A stretch of 64,000 nt of DNA. It comes from Rhodocyclales bacterium. Lineage in GTDB: Bacteria; Pseudomonadota; Gammaproteobacteria; Burkholderiales; Rhodocyclaceae. Positions 59,142 through 61,091 of the stretch are shown piece after piece. Where the stretch lies: positions 124,001 through 188,000 of the forward strand of contig JACRLX010000022.1 of NCBI GenBank assembly GCA_016235165.1. The letters are read 5' to 3'. Each line of letters starts with the position of its first letter. Position 1 is the stretch's first letter. A model generated the notes under the pieces. That model did no database searches and was not told where the DNA came from. It saw only the letters and a program-made list of their open reading frames with translations. A program made the position numbers and the translations under genes.

Positions 59142-61091
59142 ATGTGCGGCATCGTCGCGGCGACGGCAATACGCAACATCGTTCCGGTGCTGATCGAAGG
59201 CCTGACCCGGCTGGAGTACCGCGGCTACGATTCCGCCGGCCTGGCCCTGCTCAATGCAGGACCAAAAAGTCCACAAGCAGGCCCGCCCCCTCCCGTCCTC
59301 CCCCGCGCGGGGGAGGCTACTGAAATGCTCGCTACGCTCGACAATGAGCCTGTGGTCTCAGCGTCGTCCGCCAGCTTGAAGCTGACGCGCCTGCGCAGTG
59401 TCGGCCGCGTCGCCGAACTGGCGGCCCAGGCCACGGACCAGGTGGCGCACCATGGCATCGCCCACACGCGCTGGGCCACCCACGGCGTACCCTCCGAACG
59501 CAACGCCCACCCGCACGTCTCGGCCGGCCTGGCCGTGGTGCATAACGGCATCATCGAGAACTATGCCGAGCTGAAGCAGGAACTGCTGGCGGCGGGCTAC
59601 CTATTTACCTCGGATACCGATACCGAAGTCATCGCCCACCTGATCCAGCACACGCTGAAGTCCGCGCCGGACTTGTTCGAGGCGGTGCGCCTGGCCACCC
59701 AGCGCCTGATCGGCGCCTATGCCATCGCGGTATTGCGCGAATGGGACGAGACCCTGGTGGTCGCCCGCCACGGCGCTCCGCTGCTGCTGGGCCTGGGTGA
59801 GGATGGCAATTACGCCGCATCGGACGCCTCGGCGCTGCTGCAAGTGACGCGGCGCATGATCTACCTGGAAGACGGCGATGTCGCCGAACTCAAGCGCGAT
59901 GCGCTGCGGATAGTCGGCGCTGGCGGCACGGCGATGAATGTTCCGGAACAGCGCCCGGTGCACGAAAGCACGCTCTCCGCAGACGACGTCGAGCTCGGCG
60001 AATACACGCATTACATGCAGAAGGAGATCTTCGAGCAGCCGCAGGCGCTGGCGGCGACCCTCGAATTGATCGGCGGCGCCCAGGCGGTCAGCCCCAACCT
60101 GTTCGGCGTCGCCGCGCCGGAGATGCTCAACGGCGTACGCTCGGTGCTGATCCTGGCCTGCGGCACCAGCTTCCATGCCGGGCTCGTGGCCCGTTACTGG
60201 ATCGAACAACTGGCGGGCATACCGTGCAGCGTCGAGATCGCCAGCGAATACCGCTACCGCGCCTCGGTGGCGAATCCCGAACAACTCGTGGTCGCCATCT
60301 CGCAATCCGGCGAGACGGCCGACACCCTGGCCTCGATCAAGCATGCCAAGACGCAGGGCATGGGCCGTACCCTGGCGATTTGCAACGTGCCGGAATCGGC
60401 CATCGTGCGCGAGTGTGCCCTGCGCTTCCTGACCCGCGCCGGTCCCGAAATCGGCGTCGCCTCGACCAAGGCCTTCACCACCCAGCTCGGCGCGCTGTTC
60501 CTGCTGGCGGTGACCCTGGCCAAGGCGGTGGGACGCCTGTCCGCGGCGCAGGAGGCCGAACACCTTACGGCCTTGCGGCATCTGCCGGTGGCGGTGCAGA
60601 AAGTGCTGGCGCTGGAAGCGGAGATCAAGGCCTGGGCGGAGCGCTTCGCCGACAAGCAGCACGCGCTCTTCCTCGGCCGTGGCCACCACTATCCGATCGC
60701 GCTGGAAGGCGCGCTCAAGCTCAAGGAAATCTCCTACATCCATGCCGAGGGCTACCCGGCCGGCGAGCTCAAACACGGCCCGCTGGCCCTGGTGGACAAG
60801 GCCATGCCGGTGATCAGCATCGCGCCCAACGACGCCTTGCTGGAGAAGCTGAAGTCCAACCTCAAGGAAGTCGCCGCACGCGGCGGCGAGCTGTACGTCT
60901 TTGCCGATGCCGATTCGGTTTTCGACGAAGACACCGGCCTGCATGTGCTGCGCCTGCCCGAACACTACGGACTGCTGTCACCCGTACTGCACGTGGTACC
61001 CTTGCAACTGCTTTCCTATCACGCCGCGCTGGTCAAGGGCACCGACGTCGATAAACCGAGAAATCTCGCCAAAAGCGTTACCGTCGAATGA
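59142..61091 (+). CDS. glmS: Glutamine-fructose-6-phosphate aminotransferase
   Basis: A 649-residue enzyme making glucosamine-6-phosphate, about 40 residues longer than E. coli GlmS. Cys2 in MCGIV is the glutaminase nucleophile; [21 protein letters not shown] and two SIS domains ([23 protein letters not shown]) are intact. An insertion of roughly 38 residues follows LALLNAG and precedes [13 protein letters not shown] second unusual segment, [17 protein letters not shown], encoded by the dispersed repeat, lies in the linker between the two domains. It starts 3 bases after glmU. Confidence 0.96.
59262..59377 (+). repeat. In-frame hairpin insertion within glmS
   Basis: The extra segment reads [20 protein letters not shown] and onward to SASSAS. 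Its DNA contains the 20-bp perfect palindrome CCTCCCCCGCGCGGGGGAGG at 59297-59316, then GCTCGCTACGCTCGACAATGAGC, with imperfect outer arms CCACAAGCAGGC and GCCTGTGG. The frame is preserved. The exact ends are estimated by comparison with normal GlmS proteins. Confidence 0.75.
59912..59934 (+). repeat. Dispersed 23-bp repeat, copy 9 (N4 = CGGC)
   Basis: Exact core, inside glmS in sense orientation, read as VGAGGTA in the interdomain linker. Confidence 0.85.

Follow-up and report, generated by a model that had tools for sequence, protein, structure and literature searches.

The glmS gene of a Rhodocyclales bacterium (genome G000), contained in the 64,000-nucleotide stretch of DNA analyzed here (the window), had been read in an initial annotation as interrupted in frame, over positions 59262 to 59377 and by about 38 residues, by a hairpin repeat element. 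This raises the question of whether a dispersed repeat can insert within an essential cell-wall-sugar gene and be tolerated there. The product scored above the cut-offs of NCBIfam PRK00331 and TIGR01135, and no second full-length GlmS was found among the matches listed for this genome. The alignment with E. coli GlmS stopped at residue 39 and picked up at residue 80, and the Pfam glutaminase match began only at residue 103. Members of the same genus have two codons (Pro-Thr or similar, as in LLN-PT-LTRLRS) in place of positions 59256 to 59381, and the open frame has 650 codons in G000 versus 610 in most of them, a net gain of 120 bp or 40 residues that keeps the frame. The in-frame insertion is therefore real, slightly wider than first described and with a net gain of 40 codons. 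The features discussed below are collected in Table 1.

Table 1. Coordinates of glmS, its inserted segment, and related repeat copies (positions in the window unless a contig is given)
Feature	Position	Strand	Remarks
glmS, glutamine--fructose-6-phosphate transaminase (isomerizing)	59142..61091	+	649 aa, one open frame
Inserted segment (AGPKSPQ...SASLK)	59256..59381	+	126 nt, 42 codons, GlmS residues 39-80
Repeat core (CAAGCAGGCCCGCC...GCTCGA)	59274..59341	+	68 bp, part common to the dispersed family
Perfect palindrome CCTCCCCCGCGCGGGGGAGG = CCTCCCCCGC/GCGGGGGAGG	59297..59316		20 bp, inside the glmS insert
Motif GCTCGCTACGCTCGA	59327..59341	+	nearly invariant across the repeat family
Long-form copy (L146)	40592..40836	-	second copy in the window, spanning the 40604-40760 block; between two convergent genes, TAA at each end
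Copy in the indolepyruvate ferredoxin oxidoreductase (IOR) gene (L215)	G000:C13:350494-350598	-	indolepyruvate ferredoxin oxidoreductase family, PRK13029 1623.7 bits; outside the window

The palindrome in the insert is perfect, as had been claimed, and lies far above chance, since the 21-base pattern around it is expected 0.01 times per window at up to three mismatches. A blastn search of positions 59256 to 59380 against the genome gave two other 68-bp matches with 87 to 88% identity (E values of 2e-18 and 2e-15) and a trail of weaker ones behind them. There were 43 exact sites for GCTCGCTNCGCTCGA in the genome, and 62 when one mismatch was allowed, versus 21 for the reversed control pattern. 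A covariance model (R1), trained on 31 of the 43 motif-bearing copies, detected 50 copies in the genome at an E value of 0.01, so that the repeat is not a single-copy sequence. The glmS copy was part of the training set and its match to R1 holds by construction; independent support comes from blastn and from two copies left out of the training, the one in the IOR gene and the block at 40604 to 40760. The latter, proposed from the start as a relative, contains GCTCGCTNCGCTCGA without mismatch on the minus strand (40626 to 40640) and matched R1 over positions 40590 to 40687 (E value of 4.2e-14). Only the inner 68 bp of the insert can be recognized as repeat. The outer 58 nt had no counterpart in the genome by blastn beyond one 16-nt match on contig C48 that looks like chance.

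Across the genus, R1 found 9 to 118 copies per genome in 31 of 31 genomes (E value of 1e-4). In 250 genomes sampled from the order, searched with stricter filters and at most 16 candidates scored per genome, there were matches in five, all of the same family (G000 itself and four more), and none in three further genomes of that family. Rfam contained no family for the insert; a plant-virus promoter hairpin near it (20.7 bits, versus a gathering score of 40) was taken as chance.

Full-length copies are mostly intergenic. Eight of these were measured (169 bp in six, 171 bp in one, and 149 bp in one); such copies start with TAACG, end with CGTTAA or similar, and have a C-rich/G-rich hairpin core plus the invariant motif. 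Long forms, such as L146 in the window, carry additional hairpins. The TAA at each end of L146 reads as the stop codon of a flanking convergent frame, these genes being called by open frame and GC3 only. By rough gene calls of the same kind, with at least one known miscall (L175), 16 of the 26 copies with a recognized left end have it on the stop codon that closes an upstream coding-like frame, and 11 of 50 have their right end on the stop codon of a convergent one. In a genome rich in GC, a target of TA or TAA would alone favor stop codons. Core-only copies without recognizable arms also exist, and the glmS copy, which lacks the outer arms present in full-length copies, belongs to them together with the IOR copy. 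A G-quadruplex pattern was present on the minus strand of 21 of 50 cores, on the plus strand of none (0/50), and in 1 of 400 flank windows. An unusually stable RNA hairpin was considered and discarded: the core was no more stable than its shuffles (z of -0.07), and folding of the whole insert gave a weak signal (z of -2.35).

Mobility was assessed with nine queries, each made by joining the two flanks of a copy (eight intergenic ones and that in the IOR gene), which were searched in 31 genomes. G018 matched all nine queries as a single stretch without the element; other copies of the family are thus shown to be genuine insertions, absent from the corresponding sites of a close relative. A clear TA/TAA duplication was found at two of the eight intergenic loci (L144 versus L280 of G018 and L175 versus L282 of G018), the flanks of the remaining six being too diverged from the empty sites to judge, and no such duplication is visible at the glmS insert. 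In three comparisons, the same intergenic site held a different family member (L161/L370 in G002, and L137/L232 and L137/L239 in G028 and G025), which suggests that the family reuses insertion sites. A search of the genome for two transposase families, PF01797 (Y1_Tnp) and PF13358 (DDE_3), gave one match to each, neither adjoining a family copy; the PF01797 match lies at a contig end (C2:87-443), with the nearest copy on C2 at 37250. Inspection of nine loci with the left-end pattern revealed element copies and apparent chance matches and no parent transposon. Movement driven by RAYT or IS630 found no support in these matches.

Only 2 of the 50 copies in this genome are clearly intragenic, those in glmS and in the IOR gene. 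The latter is in frame, with a net length of 51 bp (17 codons), and is absent from both G018 and G006. Another copy (C20:21499) makes up the end of a frame that is hemerythrin-like by eye, and one more (C45:11787) is located close to an N-terminus. A strict coding test retrieved 1 of 50 copies in G000, missing glmS itself, and 0 of 44 in G002, and a relaxed one retrieved 3 of 50 (glmS, IOR, and C45:11787) and 3 of 43, respectively, with L393 as the only plausible case in G002. L393 (G002:C1:1029158-1029260), read antisense in the N-terminal part of a frame that resembles an ABC-transporter permease, is a possible further in-frame case. At least two forward frames are open in 47 of the 50 cores, and in-frame survival should therefore be easier.

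A GlmS locus was available in 29 genomes of the genus. Two of them, G000 and G006, have the insert and 27 do not, one of the latter (G007) having a short run of Ns immediately after the insertion site. The insert was also absent from G035, of the same family, and, by eye, from the 77 loci with a readable N-terminus among 80 from other genomes, so that it is not a segment conserved in GlmS of distant taxa. In a quick glmS tree built with the insert excluded (SH-aLRT support, no bootstrap), G000 grouped with G018 (96) and G006 with G030 (99), and neither G018 nor G030 has the insert. A clade of G000 and G006 was disfavored by glmS (AU test, P = 0.013) and was not rejected by glmU (P = 0.19).

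An AlphaFold model of GlmS, built with 37 GlmS sequences, had a mean pLDDT of 86.3 and a pTM of 0.85, with pLDDT below 50 at residues 42 to 76 and strands at 31 to 39 and 79 to 87 on either side. According to the model, the insert would be a disordered lengthening of a hairpin turn, with the overall fold intact.

Taken together, these data support the initial reading of a hairpin repeat element inserted in frame in glmS. We consider it very probable (about 85%) that a small non-autonomous, MITE/REP-like repeat of a family dispersed through the genus inserted there and is tolerated. The element would have been moved by a transposase acting in trans, and its tolerance may come from the open frames of the core, a length that is a multiple of three, and a variable surface turn as landing site. 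A single gain could be behind both glmS copies, with either short-tract exchange between species or losses in the sister lineages afterwards, and the extra residues are most probably neutral or close to it. What counts against this explanation is that the glmS copy has neither the outer arms nor the visible TA/TAA duplication of canonical transposition, that the search for PF01797 and PF13358 tied no transposase to the family, and that glmU does not reject a clade of G000 and G006.

The comparison of the two carriers bears on whether the insert is a passenger at all. Their inserts differ at 5 of 126 sites, with no stop, no indel, and three amino acid changes; the core has 0 differences in 68 sites and the rest of the insert 5 in 58, versus 273 in 1,827 (15%) for glmS outside the insert (third positions, 210/609), where 67-nt windows had a minimum of 2 and a mean of 10.0 differences. 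With fewer differences per site than the surrounding gene, the insert is unlike a neutral passenger dating from the common ancestor. Selection on the core, or a copying process at the DNA or RNA level that overwrites it, would explain this, the glmS element then being regulatory or self-maintaining, although we regard it as rather unlikely; recent exchange between species would yield the same picture. The exchanged tract would have to be short, because the immediate flanks (13/114 and 14/120 differences) are not unusually alike. Four same-site comparisons of similar elements point in both directions. L161 and its counterpart in G018 (L414) agree at 57 of 57 core sites despite only 148 of 169 for the element, with flanks at 359/400 and 384/399. 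At the intergenic locus L159, the element is identical between species at 164 to 165 of 169 to 170 sites (96 to 98%), versus 265 to 292 of ca. 300 for the flanks and mostly 88 to 93% for flanking coding DNA, but in G008 the right flank (292/299) is as conserved as the element. L188 and L403 of G008 share 133 of 167 sites, below their flanks (381/400 and 353/398), although this may be a different insertion. Conservation is thus not general, and the different family members at the L161 site in G002 and at the L137 site in G028 and G025 argue in the same direction. The G-rich hairpin, with its G-quadruplex potential on the minus strand, favors a selected core, while the absence of excess RNA stability speaks against it. 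It is correspondingly doubtful that the 68 bp form an active or selected unit, copying itself across species or kept as a minus-strand G-quadruplex or hairpin. If they did, a housekeeping protein would be under a sequence constraint set by the repeat, and this part of it would evolve at a lower rate than the rest of the enzyme.

That the same repeat unit inserted twice, independently, at the same glmS site would agree with the site reuse seen at L161 and L137 and with the position of the two carriers, which are not sisters in the glmS tree. However, both share the 58 nt outside the core, a sequence without other counterpart in G000 that fits one origin, and we find a double insertion improbable. 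Loop length does vary among other betaproteobacterial GlmS proteins, as a native linker would imply, but on these data such a linker is refuted by the 27 of 29 insert-free genus genomes and by a core that is a dispersed repeat; with the insert present in two separately assembled genomes, a native linker or an assembly error is hardly credible as an explanation. The preferred reading, a tolerated in-frame insertion of a dispersed repeat, has parallels in several known systems.

Dispersed short palindromic elements are described in Rickettsia in frame within unrelated metabolic genes, where they are apparently tolerated (PMC10969869). The family described here resembles these Rickettsia palindromic elements (RPEs) in being a dispersed palindromic repeat with in-frame copies in open reading frames. 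RPEs differ in size (ca. 150 bp), in host lineage and base composition, and in having nearly half of the copies counted in R. conorii within open reading frames, versus the 2 of 50 clearly internal here. GTAG and CGTC REPs are located mostly by the 3' ends of open reading frames, often supply the stop codon with their ends, are rarely intragenic, and occur in Thauera among others (PMC3733652). Our repeat is similarly a hairpin with ends often on stop codons and rare copies in genes, but REPs are 20 to 40 bp long with a GTAG or CGTC tag, whereas full copies here measure ca. 169 bp, carry arms, and have TAA at both ends. The tetranucleotide by the hairpin (minus strand, by eye) was GTAG in some subtypes and GTAA, GGAA, or ATAG in others, so that the aligned copies lack the constant tag of GTAG REPs, and the RAYT gene that the repeat flanks in such systems was not found either, the sole PF01797 match being remote from the copies. 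By analogy, the element would work like RPEs and intragenic REPs.

Bacterial MITEs with a TA target include Correia, ERIC, and IS630-type elements and are non-autonomous. The present family is like them in being non-autonomous, in size, and in the TA/TAA target duplication at two loci, and unlike them in having no parent transposon with the same ends among the PF01797 and PF13358 matches. Its ends (TAACG...CGTTA) match over ca. 5 bp, with no clear terminal inverted repeat beyond ca. 3 to 5 bp. Integron attC sites came into consideration because of the TAAC...GTTA ends but were dropped after inspection by eye, as the spacings do not fit.

Insertion of a repeat within a working frame is a rare but already known phenomenon; here, a peptidoglycan precursor enzyme is predicted to gain a loop of ca. 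40 residues from a mobile repeat. The kind of event is known and the repeat family is new, no description of it having been found in a search of mainly open-access literature, and it joins the few known for in-frame insertion in protein-coding genes. Close relatives have both empty and filled alleles, which makes it possible to test directly what the loop costs, how the element moves, and why the core is conserved. Outside the genus, copies in G061, from another genus of the same family (L301, L308, L311, L315, L318, and neighbors), are ca. 165 bp apart and resemble short tandem arrays.
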